A DNA stretch of 64,000 nt from Aestuariimicrobium kwangyangense DSM 21549 (GTDB taxonomy: Bacteria; Actinomycetota; Actinomycetes; Propionibacteriales; Propionibacteriaceae). The notes beneath the pieces are model-generated. The model ran no database searches and was not told the DNA's origin. It saw only the letters and a list, made by a program, of their open reading frames with translations. Positions 37,069-46,065 of this stretch are shown here, in pieces. The translations under genes and the position numbers were made by a program. The number at the start of each line of letters is the position of its first letter. The stretch's first letter is position 1. Location: the NCBI RefSeq assembly GCF_000421525.1, contig NZ_ATXE01000001.1:1302001-1366000 (forward strand), in the 5' to 3' direction.

Positions 37069-37145
37069 CGTCGGGGTCGGTGGCGCCCGGCCCGACCGAT
37101 CGCGGGTTGCTCGGGCAACCAGACCCGGGACAGGACGAACGCGGA

Positions 37146-37174
37146 CTGACACGGCGGGTCCGGCCCGATAGGTT
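37146..37174 (+). promoter_or_regulatory. fabG-fabI promoter
   Basis: CTGACA (37146-37151), 17-base spacer, TAGGTT (37169-37174), seven bases to the GTG at 37182. This is the best-matching complete promoter in the window. Confidence 0.7.
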
Positions 37175-37181
37175 GCAGGTC

Positions 37182-37898
37182 GTGAATGCAACAGCGTCCC
37201 GCAGTGTCCTGGTCACCGGCGTCAGCAAGGGGATCGGGCGAGCCATCGCGGCTGATCTGGTGGCCGCCGGTCACAAGGTCGCCGGTACCCATCGCTCGGG
37301 TGACGTGCCCGAGGGGGTGCTGGGCCTGGTCTGCGATGTCACCGATCCCGAGCAGGTCGAGGCCGCCTTCCTCGCCGCCGAGCAGGCACACGGTCCCGTG
37401 GAGATCCTGGTCGCCAACGCCGGCATCACGAAGGACGCCCTGCTGATGCGCATGAGCGAGCAGGACTTCGCGTCGGTCATCGACACCAACCTCACCGGTA
37501 CCTGGCGCGTCGTGAAGCGGGCCGTGCGACCCATGATGAAGGCCCGACACGGCAGGATCGTGCTGATCAGTTCGGTGGTGGGGCTGCTGGGTTCAGCCGG
37601 GCAGGTGAACTACGCGGCCTCGAAGTCGGCACTGGTGGGGCTCGCGCGCAGCCTGAGCCGCGAGGTGGGGAGCCGGGGCATCACCTGCAACGTGGTCGCT
37701 CCCGGGTTCATCGAGACGGACATGACCGCCGTCCTGTCCGACGAGGTGATCGCCGGCTACAAGGAGCGCATCCCCGCGGCCCGGCTGGGCTCGGTCGACG
37801 ACGTCACCTCGGCCGTCCGGTTCCTGACCAGTGACGCCGCCGGTTACATCACCGGTGCCGTCATCCCCGTTGACGGTGGCCTGGGCATGGGCCACTGA
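37182..37898 (+). CDS. fabG: 3-oxoacyl-[acyl-carrier-protein] reductase FabG
   Basis: Reduces 3-oxoacyl-ACP with NADPH in type II fatty acid synthesis. The 238-residue SDR has the cofactor loop VTGVSKGIGRAI, NAGITKD, the catalytic Ser131 (LISSVVG), Tyr144 and Lys148 (NYAASKSAL) and the GYITGAVIPVDGGLGMGH ending. GTG 37182 was chosen because a full promoter ends seven bases upstream; a longer frame exists but lies upstream of that promoter. It is 59 bp before fabI. Confidence 0.94.
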   Translation: MNATASRSVLVTGVSKGIGRAIAADLVAAGHKVAGTHRSGDVPEGVLGLVCDVTDPEQVEAAFLAAEQAHGPVEILVANAGITKDALLMRMSEQDFASVIDTNLTGTWRVVKRAVRPMMKARHGRIVLISSVVGLLGSAGQVNYAASKSALVGLARSLSREVGSRGITCNVVAPGFIETDMTAVLSDEVIAGYKERIPAARLGSVDDVTSAVRFLTSDAAGYITGAVIPVDGGLGMGH

Positions 37899-37957
37899 GC
37901 CCGGCGAGAACCCATCCACGACCACTCATCCCTCTCCCCGACTGAATAGGAACCGCA

Positions 37958-38731
37958 ATGGGAATCCTCGAAGGCAAGTCCATCCTGGTGGCGGGAGTCA
38001 CCCTCAACACCTCGATCGGTTTCGAGGTGGCGCGCCAGGCCCAGCTCGAAGGTGCCACCGTCGTGGTCTCCAACTTCGGACGAGCGCTCTCGCTCACCCG
38101 CAGGGTCGTGCAGAAGCTCGACCCCGTTCCGCCCGTCCTCGACCTCGACGTGACCAATGAGGAGCAGCTGGCGGGTCTGGTGGACGCCCTGCGCGCCGAG
38201 GGCATCGAGCGGCTCGACGGGGTCGTGCACTCGATTGCGTTCGCCAACCCTGAGCGTGCCCTCGGAGGCGCCTTCCTGAGCACCGAGTGGGACGACGTCG
38301 CCACCTCGATGCGCGTGTCCGCCTACTCCTACGCAGCCCTGGCGATGGCCTGCAAGCCGCTGTTCGGCGAGAAGGCCTCGGTGGTCGGGCTCACCTTCGA
38401 CGCGACCGTCTCGTGGCCCGCCTATGACTGGATGGGCGTGTCGAAGTCCGCCCTGGAGTCGACCAGCCGTTACCTGGCCCGCTACCTCGGCAAGGAGGGG
38501 GTGCGTTCGAACCTGGTCGCGGCCGGCCCCCTGCAGACCATCGCCAAGAAGGCCATCCCCGGAGCCTCCACCTTCGATGACGTCTGGTCCGAACGGGCAC
38601 CCCTGGGGTGGGACCCCACCGACCTCACCCCGACGGCCCGGGCGGTCGTGGCACTGCTCAGCGACTTCTTCCCCGCCACCACGGGCGAGATGATCCACGT
38701 CGACGGTGGCGTCCACGCGATGGGCGCCTGA
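37958..38731 (+). CDS. fabI: Enoyl-[acyl-carrier-protein] reductase FabI
   Basis: Catalyses the last step of each elongation cycle, reducing trans-2-enoyl-ACP with NADH. This 257-residue protein is a FabI/InhA-type SDR: GILEGKSILVAGVTLNTSIG holds the cofactor site, and the catalytic Tyr-x6-Lys is YDWMGVSK. SIAFANPERALGG and GEMIHVDGGVHAMG are other family motifs. AGGA precedes the ATG. The CphA-like Mur ligase gene begins five bases after its stop, so the three genes fabG, fabI and Mur ligase are probably co-transcribed. Confidence 0.94.
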   Translation: MGILEGKSILVAGVTLNTSIGFEVARQAQLEGATVVVSNFGRALSLTRRVVQKLDPVPPVLDLDVTNEEQLAGLVDALRAEGIERLDGVVHSIAFANPERALGGAFLSTEWDDVATSMRVSAYSYAALAMACKPLFGEKASVVGLTFDATVSWPAYDWMGVSKSALESTSRYLARYLGKEGVRSNLVAAGPLQTIAKKAIPGASTFDDVWSERAPLGWDPTDLTPTARAVVALLSDFFPATTGEMIHVDGGVHAMGA

Positions 38732-38736
38732 GCGAC

Positions 38737-40434
38737 ATGGGGCAGGCGGGGGCGCTGCTCGAGCACCGGCTGCTGGAGGGAGCCAACCTCTACTTCCCAC
38801 GGCCAGCGGTGAAGCTGACGTTCGACGTGTCAGGACTCGCCGAGTTGCCCGAGGGGAGCGCCCTCAGCCTCGCCCGCGCCGTCGGCATGCGTACCGCGGC
38901 GGTCGGCGCCCCGAACTCGGAACTGCGTTGGTTCACCCTGTCGAGGCTGGTCAGCGCGCTCACCCGCCAGGTGGCCCGGCGCGGGGGAGTCGTCCGGCTC
39001 GCCGTGCGATCCAGGCGCGGTACCCACCCCAACGAGGTGGTCGTCGCCGTGCCGTGGCGCCACACCGGCAAGGTCGACGCCCTGGCCGAGGGCATCTCTG
39101 AGGTGCTGGATGCCGCAGGCTCCCGTCGGCGGACCATTGACGCGGCCCTCGTGCGCGCGGGTGAGCGGTTGCGCGCCGCCGACGAAGGGGGCGAGCCACG
39201 CCTGATCGAGCCGAGCGTGCCGGTGGTCGGGATCACCGGCACCAATGGCAAGACCACCACCAGCCGGATGATTGCCCACGTCGCGATGACGGCCGGGCGA
39301 CACGTAGCCTGGTCGAGCACCGAAGGGGTGCACCACGACGGTCGACTGGTGGTCGACGGTGACTACTCCGGCCCTGGTGGCGCCCGCGAGGTCTTCAAGT
39401 GTTCACCCCTCGACCTGGCGGTCACGGAGACCGCCCGAGGGGGCATCCTCCGGCGCGGGATCGGGGTGCGGCGATTCGACGTCAGCGTGGTCACGAACGT
39501 CACAGCCGACCATCTGGGACTGGAGGGCATCGACACCCTCGACCAGCTCGCCGAGGTCAAGTCGGTGGTGCCCCGCATCACCAAGCCGAAGGGCTGGGCC
39601 GTGCTCAACGGCGACGACCCGCGGGTCTTCGCCATGCGTCATCTCACCGCCGCTCGTCCGTGGATCTTCTCACCCGACCCGAACTCCCCATCGCTGCGCA
39701 CCGCGCTGGACGAGGGGGGCCGGGCCACCACCGTGCTGGACGGTGCGGTCGTCGTCGTCACCCACGGCCGGGTCATGCCGGTGGTCGACCTCGTCGACGT
39801 GCCCATGACGTTGTGCGGTCTGTCGCGAGCCAACGTCGAGAACGCACTGGGGGTGACCAGCGCAGCGATGGCCCTGGGTTTCACTGCTCCCCAGATCGCG
39901 GAAGGACTCACCTCCTTCCTGCCCGAGCAGAACAACCCCGGACGGATGGCCATCTGGCTGTACCGCGACAGGATCTTCGTGATCGACGTGGCGCACAACG
40001 AGGCCGGGTTGCAGGCGCTGCTCGACATCTGCCACGGCCTGCGTGGCCCCGGTGCCGCTCTGGTGGTGAGCCTGTCGATGGCCGGCGACCGGCAACCCGA
40101 TGCCTTCCGCAAACTCGGTGAGATGGCAGGACTGGCCGCCCAGCAGGTGGTCTACACCCGCACCTCCCACTATCTGCGCGGTGCAGACCCCAACCAGTTG
40201 GCCGAATGGGTCGCCGAAGGGCTCGAGCCGACGGGCACCTCGCTGTCGGCACGATTCGACAGCGAGCTCGAGACCCTCGAGTGGGTCATGGGGCACACGG
40301 CCCCCGGTGACGTGATCGGATTCATGTCCCACCAGCAGCGTGACGAGGTGAAGGCGCGCATGGGGGCCGACGGGGGCCATGCGGCCAGCGTCGACGAGAT
40401 CCGCTCCCTCGTCCTCGGTGACGGGTCGTCGTGA
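38737..40434 (+). CDS. Cyanophycin synthetase-like Mur ligase lacking ATP-grasp domain
   Basis: A 565-residue protein with two parts. The N-terminal about 145 residues (LLEGANLYFPRPAVKLTFDV) resemble the N-terminal domain of CphA, and residues from about 150 form a complete Mur ligase: Walker-type GITGTNGKTTTSRMIAH near 164-180, ETARGGILRRGIG, NVTADHLGLEGIDT, and a C-terminal ligase domain with IDVAHNEAGLQALL. The central ATP-grasp domain of cyanophycin synthetase is missing, so it should catalyse only one ligation type. The substrate is unknown. It sits in the fatty acid gene group five bases after fabI, and ends four bases from the stop of the convergent hydrolase gene. Confidence 0.85.
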   Translation: MGQAGALLEHRLLEGANLYFPRPAVKLTFDVSGLAELPEGSALSLARAVGMRTAAVGAPNSELRWFTLSRLVSALTRQVARRGGVVRLAVRSRRGTHPNEVVVAVPWRHTGKVDALAEGISEVLDAAGSRRRTIDAALVRAGERLRAADEGGEPRLIEPSVPVVGITGTNGKTTTSRMIAHVAMTAGRHVAWSSTEGVHHDGRLVVDGDYSGPGGAREVFKCSPLDLAVTETARGGILRRGIGVRRFDVSVVTNVTADHLGLEGIDTLDQLAEVKSVVPRITKPKGWAVLNGDDPRVFAMRHLTAARPWIFSPDPNSPSLRTALDEGGRATTVLDGAVVVVTHGRVMPVVDLVDVPMTLCGLSRANVENALGVTSAAMALGFTAPQIAEGLTSFLPEQNNPGRMAIWLYRDRIFVIDVAHNEAGLQALLDICHGLRGPGAALVVSLSMAGDRQPDAFRKLGEMAGLAAQQVVYTRTSHYLRGADPNQLAEWVAEGLEPTGTSLSARFDSELETLEWVMGHTAPGDVIGFMSHQQRDEVKARMGADGGHAASVDEIRSLVLGDGSS

Positions 40435-40438
40435 CCGG

Positions 40439-41413
40439 TCACCGATCGGTGGCGAGGTCATGGAGCCGAACCGCCTCCGCGATGGCGTCGCTGGTGACCT
40501 GCGAGCAGCTGCGCCCGTCACCCACGATGCGGGCCCCCGAGAGGTAGGACCCTCGCCGGACGTGCTTGAACGGCCCGATCACGACCTGGCGGAGTCGTCC
40601 GTCCTCGGCCGCGCGTCGCCAGGACGACCGTCGCGAGATGCCGCGTCGTCCGGGGAAGACGACCAGGGGCAACCAGCGCGCCTGCCAGTCACGGCTGCCG
40701 ACCAGATGGGTGAGACTGGCGACTCGGTCGATACCGGGGTCGGCGTTGAGCACGCCTCCCAGCGAGATGAGGTGCACCCTCGCCCCGGCCGCGGCCAGGT
40801 ACCACGCGGCTCCTGCGGCGATCTGGGCGCCCCCGCTCCAGCCCAGCAGCACCACCGACGAACCCTCACCGGGACGATGCCCGGCCTCCCGCAGTTGCCT
40901 CCAGATGGTCGTCGCCACGCCGGCCGAGAAGACGGGGCCGTACCGCTCGTCGGCCGAGACCAGCACCTGGAAGACGTTGCGCAGGTTGATCACCAGCGAC
41001 AGCAGCGACACGAGACCCCGTCGGCCCTGCAGTCGGACGAGGAACCGCCAGACGACCGAACTGCGCCGGTCGTCGGTCAGCCCCCGGTTGTCGACGGAGT
41101 AGGGGTAGATGGATGAGACCACGCGCAGGTCGCCGAAGGTCTGCTCGAGACGCTCGAGGATGGGACGTTCTGCCCGGGGCACCAGCCCGTCGTCGTAGCG
41201 GGCTACGCCCGACAGGTAGACCACGTAGCAGCGGGTGCGCGCCCTCGCGGTGGATGGCCGACGGGGCTCGGACAGGGCTGCCGCGACCTCGAGACGCGCC
41301 TGCTGGGTCGCGGTTCGTCCCCGTCTGGACCACCAGACCAGCGACTCCAACGGCGAGACCAACCAGGCGAGCACCGCGAGCGCCGTGATCGCGGCCAGCA
41401 CCTGCCCGATCAC
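40439..41413 (-). CDS. Membrane-anchored alpha/beta hydrolase-like protein
   Basis: A 324-residue protein with an N-terminal transmembrane segment (about 3-28) and a soluble domain containing the nucleophile elbow GWSGG at Ser193 inside VVLLGWSGGAQIAAGAAWYL, typical of alpha/beta hydrolases and lipases. The domain ends with SDAIAEAVRLHDL. No known substrate motif is visible. The GTG start overlaps the stop of the preceding membrane-protein gene (GTGA), so it is the last gene of a coupled three-gene unit with cphA. Confidence 0.7.
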   Translation of the reverse strand: MIGQVLAAITALAVLAWLVSPLESLVWWSRRGRTATQQARLEVAAALSEPRRPSTARARTRCYVVYLSGVARYDDGLVPRAERPILERLEQTFGDLRVVSSIYPYSVDNRGLTDDRRSSVVWRFLVRLQGRRGLVSLLSLVINLRNVFQVLVSADERYGPVFSAGVATTIWRQLREAGHRPGEGSSVVLLGWSGGAQIAAGAAWYLAAAGARVHLISLGGVLNADPGIDRVASLTHLVGSRDWQARWLPLVVFPGRRGISRRSSWRRAAEDGRLRQVVIGPFKHVRRGSYLSGARIVGDGRSCSQVTSDAIAEAVRLHDLATDR

Positions 41414-42135
41414 GGCTGGGTACCCTTCCCCGGCTTCGCCCGAGGGCCATGGGCAAGGGCGAGTTCCTCCGCCGCTGCGGGTGCGGACAGTTCGGCGAAG
41501 ACCTGTTGGGCGCTGAGCAGGCGCCTCGTGCCGGTCAGCCGCCACCAGACCGCCTCCCGGACGACCGCCAGCGGGACGCGGACCACCGCCACCAGCACCT
41601 GACGGGCCAGCCAGGCGACGGTGACCAGCGCCAGTGACCACCACGGGAGTCCCGTGAGATCTGAGACGAGCGACCACATCACCAGGAACTGCCACACGTG
41701 CAGCACCCGCTCGAGCAGGGGACCGATGAACGGTGCGATGGCCACCCAGCTGAACCACAGCGGCGCCAGCGAGACCAGCACCACCTGCACCACCACCGTC
41801 AACGGCGGGGTCCGCACCGGCGAGACCAGCACCATCGCCCACAGCAGCAGACCCTGCACGGCGTGCGTCAGGATGGTCTGTACCCCCGACAGCAGGCCGG
41901 CCACGACCACACCGACGCCGCGGATGTTGTTGATCACCACGAGCCCGATGTCGCCGACCATTCCGGCGAGGGCCGCGACCAGGGGGATGGTGACGACCAC
42001 TGACCAGGCCAGGGCGCCCGGGTTGCTGTCGAGCACCCCCGGTACCGTCAGCGAAGGGGAGCCGATCGGGTCGAGGCCGACCAAGTCTGCCCACGTGTGC
42101 AGGAGCAGCCGCCCCCACTGACCGAGGATGCTCAC
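41410..42135 (-). CDS. Integral membrane protein in the cphA operon
   Basis: A 241-residue protein with about five hydrophobic segments: SVVVTIPLVAALAGMV, then VVVAGLLSGVQTILT, LLLWAMVLV, VVQVVLVSLAPLWFSWVAI and LVTVAWLARQVLVAVV. The C-terminal 40 residues are hydrophilic and charged. I do not recognise the family. It starts with a GTG overlapping the cphA stop (GTGA) and overlaps the hydrolase gene at its other end, so all three are translationally coupled and probably work together, perhaps at the cell membrane (inference). Confidence 0.65.
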   Translation of the reverse strand: MSILGQWGRLLLHTWADLVGLDPIGSPSLTVPGVLDSNPGALAWSVVVTIPLVAALAGMVGDIGLVVINNIRGVGVVVAGLLSGVQTILTHAVQGLLLWAMVLVSPVRTPPLTVVVQVVLVSLAPLWFSWVAIAPFIGPLLERVLHVWQFLVMWSLVSDLTGLPWWSLALVTVAWLARQVLVAVVRVPLAVVREAVWWRLTGTRRLLSAQQVFAELSAPAAAEELALAHGPRAKPGKGTQP

Positions 42136-44873
42136 CCGTGGGGCGACTCGTGGTCGCTGGGGGTGGCCCGGTGTCCTTGGTTCTCGAGTTCCGCCATCAC
42201 CCGGGCATGGGAGTCGGAGCAGATGACGACCAGGTCGCCCGGGGAGCTGAGGGACATCACGTGGCGGGTGGCCTCGAGTTCGTCGAGCACGACCTCCACC
42301 CGCTGACAGCGGGCACCCTTGGCCATGGCCTCTTCCACCCCCTCGACCGTCAGACGGGCGGTCTCACCCACCTGCCGGCCCCGGGTGCGGGCATCCTCGC
42401 GGACGACGACGTGGTCGAAGTGCCGGGCAGCCACTCGTCCCAGTTCGGCGATGTCGTCGTCGCGTCGGTCGCCTGCTGTGGCGATCACCCCGATGCGGTG
42501 CATGGGTCGTCCGGTCGTCTGTTCCGACTCCGCGGCAGTGCGGTCGACGAAGTCGCCCAGCATCACCATGCCCGGTGCGTTGTGGCAGTAGTCGATGATG
42601 ACGGTCCGACCGTCCACGGTCACCTCGTTGAGCCGACCGGGGGCCAGGTAGTAGCTGGTCGAGAACGTGCGCAGCCCTTGGCGGATGTCGTGCAGGGAGG
42701 CCCCCGACGAGTACGCGGCGGCGGCCGCGGCCATGGCGTTCTGCACGTTCATCACGGCTCGCCCCCCGAAGGTCGAGGGCATCAGGTGGGTCCAGGCGAT
42801 CTGCATCGAGCGGCGCCCGTCGCGCAGCATGATCCGGTCTCCCATCTCGGAGGAGTCGAGGACGACCGCCCGCCCGCCCCGACGGCAGTGGTCCTCGACC
42901 ATGTCTCGCGAGGCCTCGCCCGGCTGGCGCATGCTGAACCAGACGACCCGTCCCGAACAGGCACGCCGCATGCCGGCCACGTTCGGGTCGTCGGCGTTGA
43001 GCACGGCGTAGCCGTGTCGGGGCACGGCCTCGACCACCACCTGCTTGACCGCCGCCAACTGCGCCAGGGTGTTGATCCCCCGGATGCCCAGGTGGTCGGG
43101 AGTGACGTTGAGCACAACGGCGACGTCGTTGTAGTCGTAGCCCAGCCCCTCACGCAGGATGCCCCCGCGCGCGACCTCGAGCACGGCGAAGTCGACCCGC
43201 GGGTTCTGCAGCACCATCCGGGCCGAGCGTGGTCCGGAGGCGTCGGCCCTGATCACCAGGCGTTCGTCGATGACCACACCATCGGTCGAGGTCATGCCGA
43301 CCTTGCGACCGATCCCCTTGAAGATGTGGGCGATCATGCGGCTGGTGGTGGTCTTGCCGTTGGTGCCGGTGACCGCGACGATCGGGATCCGGCTCGGAGT
43401 GCCCGCCGGGAACAGCATGTCGATCACGGGCTTGGCGATGTACTGAGGGTCACCGATGGTCGGGTGCGTGTGCATCCGGAACCCCGGCGCGGCGTTGACC
43501 TCGCAGATGCCACCCCCGGTCTCACGCACGGGCTGGGTGATGTCGGGGCAGATGAAGTCGATGCCGGCGATGTCCAGGCCGATGATGCGGGCGGCTTCCT
43601 CGGCGATCTCGATGTTCTCGGGGTGTGCCTCGAAGGTGCGGTCGATGGAGATCCCACCGGTCGACATGTTGCCGGTCAGGGTCAGTTGCACCACCCGGCC
43701 GGGCTCGGGTACGTCATCCATGCCCATGCCCTGACCAGCAACCAGGTCGACGGCATCCTGGTCGATCCGGATGCGGGTGAGCACCTTCTCATGGCCCACA
43801 CCTCGCCTTGGATCGGCGTTGGTCTGCTCGACCAGTTCGGTGATCGTGTGTCGTCCGTCGCCGACCACGTGGGCGGGAACACGCTCGGCGATGGCGGCGA
43901 TCTGGCCGCCGATCACCAGACAGCGGTAGTCGCGGCCCGTGATGAAGCTCTCGACGATCATCACCCCACGCTTCGACTCGGCCCGTGATGCCTCCCAGAC
44001 GTCGGCGATCGCCTGTTCGTCGGCGAGGTTGAGCTTCACCCCTCGTCCGTGGTTGCCGTCGAGGGGTTTGATGACCACGGGGTAGCCGATGCGGCGGGCC
44101 TCCCGCTGGGCCTCGGCCAGGGTGCGCACGGACGCGGATCGGGGCACGGGCAGACCGGCGTTGCCCAGCAGTTCGAGGGTGAGGTTCTTGTTGGAGGCGA
44201 TGTCGACGGCGATGTTCGAGGTGCGCGAGGTCATGGTGGCGCGGATGCGCTGCTGGTGCACTCCCTGGCCCAACTGGATGAGGCTGGCGGAGTTCAGCCG
44301 CTGCCAGGGGATGTCACGGCTGACGGCCTCGTCGACGATGGCCTGGGTCGAGGGGCCCAGGGCGTACCGCTCGGCGGTGCGGGCCAGGGAATCGATCTCG
44401 GTGCCGAGATCGAAGCCGGGTTCGGCGCTGACCAGGTGGTTGACGAGTCGGACTGCGAGTTCGCCGGCGGCCAGGCCCACGAACTCGTCCTGGTAGGCGT
44501 AGATCACGTTGTACTTGCCCGGTTCCCCCTTCACCGACCGGGTCTTGCCGCGGCGCGCGTCATGCCCGACCTGGGTCTGCAGTTCGATGGCCACGTGCTC
44601 GGTCACGTGCCCCAGCCAGGTGCCCTCGTGCAGGCGCTCCACGAATCCGCCCTTGCGGCCGCGTGAACAGTGGTGGTTCCACAGGCCCGGCAGCATCGCG
44701 TACAGGGTGTCTGCGAAACCGGGAAGGGTGTCGGTGGGGAACTGCTCCAGCACCCCGAGGTCGACGACCAGTTGAACCACCTTGCGGTAGTGCCAGACGT
44801 TGGGTCCCCGGAAGACTCGGGACGACTCGATCCGCAACTCCGGTGCCGGCACGGTGGTGGTGGTCTCGCTCAT
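42132..44873 (-). CDS. cphA: Cyanophycin synthetase
   Basis: Polymerises aspartate and arginine into cyanophycin, a nitrogen and carbon reserve, using ATP. The 913-residue protein has the CphA N-terminal domain (RVFRGPNVWHYRKVVQLVVDLG), the ATP-grasp domain (about 215-475, with GYPVVIKPLDGNHGRGVKLNL and EVNAAPGFRMHTHP) and the Mur ligase-like C-terminal part (VTGTNGKTTTSRMIAH near 500, NVTPDHLGIRGINT, IDYCHNAPGMVML). Both catalytic halves are intact. The start could be ATG 44882 or 44873; I prefer 44873, nine bases after GGAAAG. cphB is 55 bases upstream, and two coupled genes follow. Confidence 0.93.
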   Translation of the reverse strand: MSETTTTVPAPELRIESSRVFRGPNVWHYRKVVQLVVDLGVLEQFPTDTLPGFADTLYAMLPGLWNHHCSRGRKGGFVERLHEGTWLGHVTEHVAIELQTQVGHDARRGKTRSVKGEPGKYNVIYAYQDEFVGLAAGELAVRLVNHLVSAEPGFDLGTEIDSLARTAERYALGPSTQAIVDEAVSRDIPWQRLNSASLIQLGQGVHQQRIRATMTSRTSNIAVDIASNKNLTLELLGNAGLPVPRSASVRTLAEAQREARRIGYPVVIKPLDGNHGRGVKLNLADEQAIADVWEASRAESKRGVMIVESFITGRDYRCLVIGGQIAAIAERVPAHVVGDGRHTITELVEQTNADPRRGVGHEKVLTRIRIDQDAVDLVAGQGMGMDDVPEPGRVVQLTLTGNMSTGGISIDRTFEAHPENIEIAEEAARIIGLDIAGIDFICPDITQPVRETGGGICEVNAAPGFRMHTHPTIGDPQYIAKPVIDMLFPAGTPSRIPIVAVTGTNGKTTTSRMIAHIFKGIGRKVGMTSTDGVVIDERLVIRADASGPRSARMVLQNPRVDFAVLEVARGGILREGLGYDYNDVAVVLNVTPDHLGIRGINTLAQLAAVKQVVVEAVPRHGYAVLNADDPNVAGMRRACSGRVVWFSMRQPGEASRDMVEDHCRRGGRAVVLDSSEMGDRIMLRDGRRSMQIAWTHLMPSTFGGRAVMNVQNAMAAAAAAYSSGASLHDIRQGLRTFSTSYYLAPGRLNEVTVDGRTVIIDYCHNAPGMVMLGDFVDRTAAESEQTTGRPMHRIGVIATAGDRRDDDIAELGRVAARHFDHVVVREDARTRGRQVGETARLTVEGVEEAMAKGARCQRVEVVLDELEATRHVMSLSSPGDLVVICSDSHARVMAELENQGHRATPSDHESPHG

Positions 44874-44928: not shown

Positions 44929-45870
44929 TCAGCTCGCCTCGGCGCTGGGACGACGGCGCGACTTGCGCTTCTCGTAACCGAAGGTGTCAGCCCCCTCGGA
45001 CGCGATGTCGCGGGCCAGTTGGCGCAATGACTCGGCTGCGGCGGTGATCTCGCGCTTCTCGCTCAGGGGCACCTTGGGGATGTGGGGACGGTAGGTGCGC
45101 GAGGCCATGTGGAACTGTTGACCGGCGGGGAGCACGTGCATGGTGACTCCCGAGACCAACAGCGGTTGGGTCTGCTGCGCTGTGGGGGCGTCCGAGATGG
45201 CATGGGACCCGTCGACGATGGTCACCGCGCCGCGGCCGACGACGGTCATCAGGCCGTCGTCGGTGAACACCGCGGCCGTGTCCTCATCGACCCCCAGGCC
45301 GAGCAGCGAGGGTGACTGGGCCACGAGGGCCAGCAGGCGCCCGTAACGATTGCGCTGGGCGAAGTGCTGGTCGAGGATCACTCCGGGCACGAGTCCCAGT
45401 CCGCCGGCCATCTGGCCCATGCGTTGCTTCGGGGTGGGTCCGGCCGCTCCGAAGGCGATCATGTGTTCCGCCAGGATCGAGCACCCGGCCGAGGTGCCAC
45501 CGACGACTGCGCCTCGTTCGTGGGCTCTCAGGATGGCTTGGCCGACGGGGGTACCGGTGATCACGGCCGTGAGCTTCAGTTGGTTGCCCCCGGTCATGAA
45601 CACGCCGGTGGCGCGGTCGATGCGTTCCACGAGGGCCGGGTCATCCGACTCGAGGCGGGTCTGTGGCCTGACCTCGAGCACTTCCTGTGCCCCCAGTGAG
45701 GTGAAGGCCGCGTCGTAGACGTCCATCACCTCGGGGCCGAGGGAGGAGGCGGTGGGGATGACGACGATCCGCGCGTTGGCACCCCCGGCAGCCTTCAGGA
45801 ACGCTCGCAGCACGGTGCGGCGACTGAGTTTGGCCTCGGCGCCGCCGATGGCGAAGATCGGTCCCGACAT
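44929..45870 (-). CDS. cphB: Cyanophycinase
   Basis: A serine-type exopeptidase of the peptidase S51 family that degrades cyanophycin to beta-Asp-Arg dipeptides. The 313-residue protein has the nucleophile Ser127 in GGTSAGCSILAE, preceded by GVFMTGGNQLKL and followed by LGLVPGVILDQHFAQRNRYGRLL with the catalytic His region. ATG 45870 is seven bases after TAGGGT and overlaps a possible AGGGTGGA ribosome-binding site. It precedes cphA in the same direction, the classic cphB-cphA pair. Confidence 0.93.
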   Translation of the reverse strand: MSGPIFAIGGAEAKLSRRTVLRAFLKAAGGANARIVVIPTASSLGPEVMDVYDAAFTSLGAQEVLEVRPQTRLESDDPALVERIDRATGVFMTGGNQLKLTAVITGTPVGQAILRAHERGAVVGGTSAGCSILAEHMIAFGAAGPTPKQRMGQMAGGLGLVPGVILDQHFAQRNRYGRLLALVAQSPSLLGLGVDEDTAAVFTDDGLMTVVGRGAVTIVDGSHAISDAPTAQQTQPLLVSGVTMHVLPAGQQFHMASRTYRPHIPKVPLSEKREITAAAESLRQLARDIASEGADTFGYEKRKSRRRPSAEAS

Positions 45871-45877
45871 GCGTTCC

Positions 45878-45883
45878 ACCCTA
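45878..45883 (-). promoter_or_regulatory. -10 element of the cphB-cphA operon
   Basis: TAGGGT on the minus strand, seven bases before the ATG at 45870. It would drive the whole cphB-cphA-membrane protein-hydrolase unit. AGGGTGGA could alternatively be a Shine-Dalgarno sequence. Confidence 0.45.
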
Positions 45884-46065
45884 ACGGGTGGGCGATGGTG
45901 CGGCGGTGTGGCGCATGGGCGCAGTGGCAACTTCATCCCGTGGCGCTTCCGACCACCGTCGGCCATTGCTGGCGATCCGAAACCGTGCGAGCGCCCCCGA
46001 TGTTGCTCGCGCCAGGCAAGTTCTCCAGCCCTGCAACGGTTGTGGATCGCTGATCGGGAGGCTCC
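45884..46065. other. Gap upstream of cphB without an identified gene
   Basis: This non-coding stretch between cphB and the next gene on the same strand holds a GCGAGC / GCTCGC inverted pair near 45988-46011 that could form a 12-base-loop stem. I found no tRNA, riboswitch or other recognised element. Confidence 0.3.

Follow-up and report, generated by a model that had tools for sequence, protein, structure and literature searches.

MurX, a Mur ligase that resembles cyanophycin synthetase (CphA) and lacks an ATP-grasp domain, is a constant partner of CphA in the Actinomycetota examined. Here, we describe this protein from a 64,000-nucleotide stretch of the genome of Aestuariimicrobium kwangyangense DSM 21549 (contig NZ_ATXE01000001.1, positions 1,302,001 to 1,366,000; hereafter the window), together with its relatives in other genomes. 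MurX is the name given here to CphA-companion Mur ligases without an ATP-grasp domain, recognised by a CphA-like N part, a YLRG motif and a CphA in the same genome or record, all of which were found for the window protein. Its best reading would be an isopeptide-type ligase with a different substrate; at roughly even odds (a probability of about 0.5), it may be an active Mur-type ligase that attaches a non-basic amino acid to cyanophycin or a precursor. Coordinates of all features are in Table 1.

Table 1. Features of the MurX-CphA locus, in positions of the window.
Feature	Coordinates	Strand	Basis or remark
fabG and fabI, upstream neighbours of MurX	37080..38731	+	present without MurX in relatives lacking CphA
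MurX, 565-aa CphA-like Mur ligase without ATP-grasp domain	38737..40434	+	ORF, Pfam, NCBIfam, model
CphA-like N domain lacking HxxEH, a zinc-peptidase motif of CphA1 (about aa 1-130)	38737..39126	+	hhalign, structure
Mur ligase core with P-loop and Mg-binding residues, about aa 160-396	39214..39924	+	Pfam, structure, conservation
P-loop TGTNGKTT, aa 167-174	39235..39258	+	residues conserved in MurX and CphA
Mur ligase lid / C-terminal domain, about aa 397-548	39925..40380	+	Pfam, structure
MurX signature YLRG, aa 479-482	40171..40182	+	each residue in at least 94% of 37 MurX
324-aa uncharacterised ORF between cphA and MurX, GWSGG motif	40439..41413	-	no Pfam match
241-aa uncharacterised ORF, start overlapping cphA end	41410..42135	-	no Pfam match
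CphA (cyanophycin synthetase 1, Cx19HxxEH), companion, convergent with MurX	42132..44873	-	TIGR02068
CphB, cyanophycinase (peptidase S51)	44929..45966	-	TIGR02069, 243.3 bits (cut-off 126.6)

Domain make-up and predicted structure of MurX

The MurX reading frame has no internal stop, and Pfam finds in its translation only Mur_ligase_M (residues 166-374; PF08245, 56.7 bits against a gathering threshold of 24) and Mur_ligase_C (residues 402-530; PF02875, 38.4 against 28.4), as in the Mur ligase superfamily. No ATP-grasp family was found in MurX by Pfam, NCBIfam or structure comparison. The cyanophycin synthetase model TIGR02068 matches MurX with 325.7 bits over model positions 477-851 only, below its whole-protein cut-off of 850, and among solved structures the closest in sequence are those of CphA1 (E 6.2e-58, residues 160-499). 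PF18921 gives no match to the N-terminal 130 or so residues; hhalign of MurX N parts against CphA N domains yields E 9.6e-6 and a probability of 82.7, with the N part of alphaproteobacterial MurX aligning poorly past its first motif. The N parts differ in mean net charge, +6.6 in MurX vs -3.5 in 36 CphA, and HxxEH, part of the Cx19HxxEH zinc site of CphA1, is found in 0 of 37 MurX N domains. The full motif is present in 83% of CphA1 (PMC9262961) and in 30 of 31 CphA from these loci, among them that of the window; the remaining one is truncated there.

The MurX structure was predicted with an alignment of 29 sequences as input (mean pLDDT 91.3, pTM 0.90). With VIA-align, CphA1 chains took the top ranks, led by 7wae_A (Z 52.9, rmsd 3.2, 521 residues), on whose chain residues 1-877 model residues 5-546 align; CphA1 chains with less protein resolved gave Z 29.9-37.1, and the best non-CphA1 chain, a MurC, gave Z 33.0. 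Foldseek also placed CphA1 first (E 2.6e-36). By this superposition the modelled MurX contains counterparts of the CphA N and M domains, placed relative to each other as in CphA, and no ATP-grasp domain. The initial annotation had described a CphA-type N domain joined to a full Mur ligase half without ATP-grasp, and Pfam, NCBIfam and structure agree with it; the HMM and structure comparisons with CphA and MurE that it proposed place CphA1 nearest and MurE far below cut-off. Two findings that it named as evidence against itself did not appear. A cryptic ATP-grasp domain was sought by Pfam, NCBIfam and structure and not found, and the spacer of about 30 residues between the N and M domains is too short for one. 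Orthology with a characterised Mur ligase was rejected for MurE (TIGR01085, 72 bits against a cut-off of 257.3), MurF, MurT, FolC and the pseudomurein ligases, all scoring far below their NCBIfam cut-offs, and no such model came near its cut-off. MurX of family f9 can bear a C-terminal extension of about 170 aa (L040:1468-3666, L041:928-3156), which in L041 matches TPR_5.

Co-occurrence, gene order and ancestry of MurX and CphA

Of 57 genomes (that of the window and 56 relatives), 14 carry a full-length MurX, at 48-54% identity in all but the window's own, and exactly these 14 also have a CphA-type M-domain match. Across 396 Actinomycetota genomes, MurX matches (E 1e-35 or better) occur in 24, the window's own included, and TIGR02068, used on the same genomes as an independent query, exceeds its cut-off in 22, all with MurX, some as fragments on short contigs. 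Two further genomes have MurX together with a CphA fragment under the cut-off (G194) or with a CphA end piece on one contig (G289), giving 24 genomes with both (two with CphA fragments) and none with one alone (Fisher p 6e-39, a value that ignores relatedness). Other CphA-model hits at E 1e-40 were ATP-grasp-only or Mur-only stretches below cut-off, among the matches listed. At the level of the order, 116 of 391 genomes give a match, with at least two in 115 of them; among the matches listed, the second is CphA-like. The order, phylum and 57-genome samples overlap. One genome of the order, G466, has a CphA at 72% identity and no MurX match. Its contig ends about 2 kb beyond cphA, and a fabI query that matched eight same-genus stretches at 64-66% identity found nothing in this assembly; the lack of MurX is likely an assembly gap.

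Two other kinds of match were seen in these genomes. Many of the 396 encode proteins that match only the ATP-grasp part of TIGR02068 (about positions 150-475; 161-223 bits) in frames of 387-1279 aa. A second MurX-like N-terminal piece (G352:C88:3350-4159; 48% identity, residues 3-265) lies in a genome where a different contig carries a full MurX, and is either contamination or a second copy. A scan of genome contigs with patterns from the divergent window copy found two relatives only, perhaps owing to that divergence, and no phage-borne MurX was confirmed in a scan of viral contigs.

In the window, CphA scores 1163.4 bits against the TIGR02068 cut-off of 850, has all domains and stands tail-to-tail with MurX, the two ends 1.7 kb apart, which bears out the earlier claim of a true CphA nearby that faces the ligase. 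The cphB gene lies upstream of cphA on the same strand. Neither of the two ORFs between cphA and MurX, the 324-aa one taken in its longer reading, has a tblastn match in 16 related stretches (L022-L037); the GWSGG of the 324-aa product presumably resembles hydrolase nucleophile motifs. Despite the presence of CphA and cyanophycinase, isoaspartyl aminopeptidase (PF01112) and isoaspartyl dipeptidase (TIGR01975) have no match in the whole genome of the window, and all 35 CphA1-bearing Actinomycetota genomes counted in PMC10206079 had one or the other.

MurX and cphA were called as ORFs in 28 of the 35 stretches analysed and are convergent in all 28, with gaps of -22 to 7033 bases; many of these come from close relatives, yet eight families are represented. 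The other seven, in which MurX or cphA was not a separate ORF, were left out, and two of them (G117, G248) are also convergent by match coordinates. Outside Actinomycetota, the survey covered plasmid records, with regions viewed in 8 of the 23 matching records and in a Legionella record. On a Shinella zoogloeoides plasmid, cyanophycinase and cphA are followed by the Mur ligase, with MurX directly behind cphA on the same strand, and a plasmid of Ruegeria sp. AD91A has the same order and orientation; two further plasmid records hold MurX-like matches with 54.8% and 93.7% identity to the Shinella protein. These plasmid homologues are annotated only as "Mur ligase family protein". The viewed Rhizobium, Sphingobium and Pelagibacterium plasmid stretches, laid out as cphA, isoaspartyl peptidase and cyanophycinase, have no MurX, and Deinococcus KNUC1210 combines that layout with a degraded CphA-like ORF. 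Deinococcus plasmids also carry CphA-like genes with a degenerate ATP-grasp part or split into two annotated ORFs (L085:5023-7197, L092:7966-10465), beside or apart from an intact cphA. A contig titled Spirochaetaceae MAG CAN_BIN15 (L022) has the layout fabG-fabI-MurX-cphA-cphB; its neighbours cluster with the serB, glgC and glgA of family f9, and the label or bin may be wrong.

Upstream of MurX in the window, the fabI stop ends at 38731 and the MurX ATG follows 5 bases later, at 38737, as the initial annotation had stated. A fabI gene is near MurX in 14 of 14 related stretches that have upstream sequence and in 3 of 3 from family f9 (about 2 kb off in L068), and in 0 of 15 MurX stretches from other classes, some of which have only a few kb upstream. 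A fabI search in six genomes matched five, the window's own included, and not G034. Four relatives that lack both CphA and MurX, one of them of the same genus, have fabG-fabI without MurX. The comparison of fabG-fabI loci with and without MurX led us to reject a place for MurX in a fatty-acid operon, and a functional link with fatty acid synthesis is not supported. In three of these four relatives, fabI is followed within a few kb by the ABC-ATPase gene found past cphB in the window, and NfeD and SPFH genes are also there in two of them. The cyanophycin genes therefore appear to have been acquired or lost here as a single unit.

The phylogeny of homologues that had been proposed was built from 75 M domains as a quick, unrooted tree with SH-aLRT support only and no outgroup. 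MurX forms its own group apart from CphA: one branch (SH-aLRT 99) separates 35 MurX from genome searches and two alphaproteobacterial MurX from 36 CphA and two ATP-grasp-poor CphA relatives. The window's MurX is fast-evolving, with an end branch of 1.14 and a distance from its nearest sisters about 1.8 times that among the sisters. MurX and CphA distances agree over 30 pairs (r 0.947, reached by 0 of 2000 shuffles), as expected from co-inheritance, with a contribution from shared species history. Horizontal shuffling of MurX apart from CphA is not supported by these matching distances, which species history gives too.

Active site and possible function

The residues T167, G168, N170, G171, K172, T173 and T174 are common to MurX and CphA, at 94% or more in each group. 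The ATP/Mg residues K499, T500, T522, E558, R731 and H748 of TeCphA1 (PMC9427784, from which its domain limits were also taken) have K172, T173, T195, E231, R403 and H420 as their MurX counterparts, and all six are conserved at 94% or more in both groups. The YLRG signature, kept by both alphaproteobacterial MurX, occupies the loop that reads D-x-x-x-R-G-R in CphA and DNPR in MurE, and R481 of MurX is the conserved arginine of the latter.

Asp-406 and Glu-460 of S. aureus MurE bind the side chain of lysine (PMC3829189), and the arginine pocket of the CphA M domain was placed from this enzyme, with a gapped alignment of the MurE loop and the pocket judged from sequence. CphA has D827 and D887 in or near the matching loops and D807 close by, each in 36 of 36 CphA; MurX is acidic at position 807 in 2 of 37 (both alphaproteobacterial MurX are acidic here), at 827 in 12 and at 887 in 1. 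The presumed arginine-pocket acids thus appear mostly gone from MurX. The presumed pocket loop also contains R535 in 35 of 37 MurX, and R483 is absent from the window's MurX. A further charge change, from E575 in CphA to R240 in MurX, is valid against this CphA set only, cyanobacterial CphA1 having A or S at the E575 position; they also have E in place of D at position 887.

CphA is the likely functional partner of MurX, and several kinds of partnership can be weighed on these data. An initiation enzyme that joins the first building blocks as a starter for CphA is unlikely: primer supply is given as a limiting step for CphA (PMC9262961), and MurX keeps the N and M domains and accompanies CphA, but Cx19HxxEH, nearly always complete in the CphA of these loci (30 of 31), is linked to primer independence, and the acids expected for Arg addition are mostly absent from MurX. 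We consider it quite unlikely that MurX provides a second Arg/Lys-adding M domain, redundant with that of CphA or stimulating it. Its fold and ATP/Mg residues are as in CphA, and the acidic position 827 in 12 of 37 MurX would fit such a role, but 35 of 37 have lost the acid at 807 and 36 that at 887, and redundancy alone would not predict that MurX is kept beside an intact CphA in at least eight families. A regulatory or structural partner in a mixed complex with CphA, with its own catalysis secondary, would suit the close co-occurrence, the matching distances and the CphA-like placement of the N and M domains in the model; it is just as improbable, with all six compared ATP/Mg residues conserved, unlike in a pseudoenzyme, and with MurX lacking the ATP-grasp (G) domain; in the CphA1 tetramer the M domains make contact with the core of that domain (PMC9427784). 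An isopeptide ligase serving fatty acid synthesis or the cell wall has very little probability. In its favour, MurX directly follows fabI in the window and has it nearby in the 14 related and three f9 stretches; against it, fabG-fabI occur without MurX in four CphA-less relatives, fabI is in none of the 15 other-class stretches, and MurX was not seen without CphA in the 396 phylum genomes.

For the preferred reading, a ligase that adds a non-basic amino acid to cyanophycin or a precursor, we infer catalytic activity, a cyanophycin-type acceptor and a non-basic nucleophile: MurX would be catalytically competent, would add an amino acid other than Arg or Lys, and would act on an acceptor with more negative charge than the finished polymer. 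Dedicated to the cyanophycin pathway and with the architecture of the CphA N and M domains, it would use ATP at its Mur ligase site to activate a carboxylate as acyl-phosphate and would couple an amino acid to it. The acceptor would most likely be an aspartate with a free carboxylate, at the growing cyanophycin end or on a precursor. With most of the presumed arginine-holding acids lost and an arginine present in that loop, a neutral or acidic incoming amino acid is probable, and the product would then be cyanophycin bearing a cap or an alternative side chain. Points against this reading are that the convergent MurX is not on one transcript with cphA in Actinomycetota, that 12 of 37 MurX are acidic at 827 and both alphaproteobacterial ones at 807, that the N part of the latter aligns poorly, that the window's own copy evolves fast and lacks R483, and that G466 has CphA without a MurX match. 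We suggest only tentatively that actinobacterial cyanophycin differs from the cyanobacterial polymer of two amino acids, that MurX adds a third, non-basic and perhaps acidic amino acid as a cap or side chains, and that such a modified polymer is made across Actinomycetota and some Alphaproteobacteria.

If a second ligase is regular in actinobacterial cyanophycin, the single-enzyme view of its synthesis is incomplete for the phylum, and the composition of the polymer becomes a directly testable question. MurX also bears on host engineering for altered cyanophycin and on cyanophycin recovery from wastewater, for which the Tetrasphaera cphA cluster is given as cphB, cphA, glgA, glgC and serB (PMC10687191). 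The same genes are found in L067, with MurX on the other side of cphA, and L068 and L069 share glgA and glgC of that cluster.

Comparison with known systems

No description of the MurX family was found in the cyanophycin literature searched, mostly open-access, and a prior mention is possible; "Mur ligase" is absent from the main texts of a survey of cyanophycin genes (PMC10206079) and of PMC10687191. A Legionella adelaidensis plasmid protein, annotated as a Mur ligase family protein (L093:5848-7716), is like MurX in having N and M domains and no ATP-grasp domain, but keeps HxxEH and a CphA-like RHDRDCRGR loop. In the tree it lies with the CphA sequences, its branch very long and its placement unsure, and because of this position, its HxxEH and its loop it is probably a separate, independent loss of the G domain. 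Its gene adjoins cyanophycinase and isoaspartyl peptidase, with no cphA in the 13.5 kb viewed.

MurE, the UDP-MurNAc-dipeptide ligase, shares with MurX the Mur ligase M and C domains and the DNPR arginine (R481), but MurX has a CphA-like N domain in place of MurE's own and scores 72 bits against the 257.3 of the MurE cut-off. CphA1 (TIGR02068; PDB 7wae, 7lg5) is like MurX in its N/M arrangement, ATP/Mg residues and gene neighbourhood, whereas MurX lacks HxxEH and the G domain, which adds Asp in CphA, has mostly lost the presumed Arg-pocket acids and forms a separate tree group. CphA2 of cyanobacteria is likewise a CphA relative with a single ligase site, and uses its G domain to repolymerise beta-Asp-Arg. 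This repolymerisation is described in PMC10206079, and the CphA2 N domain is also without HxxEH (PMC9262961). With the M domain kept and the G domain of CphA2 absent, MurX is the opposite truncation to CphA2.
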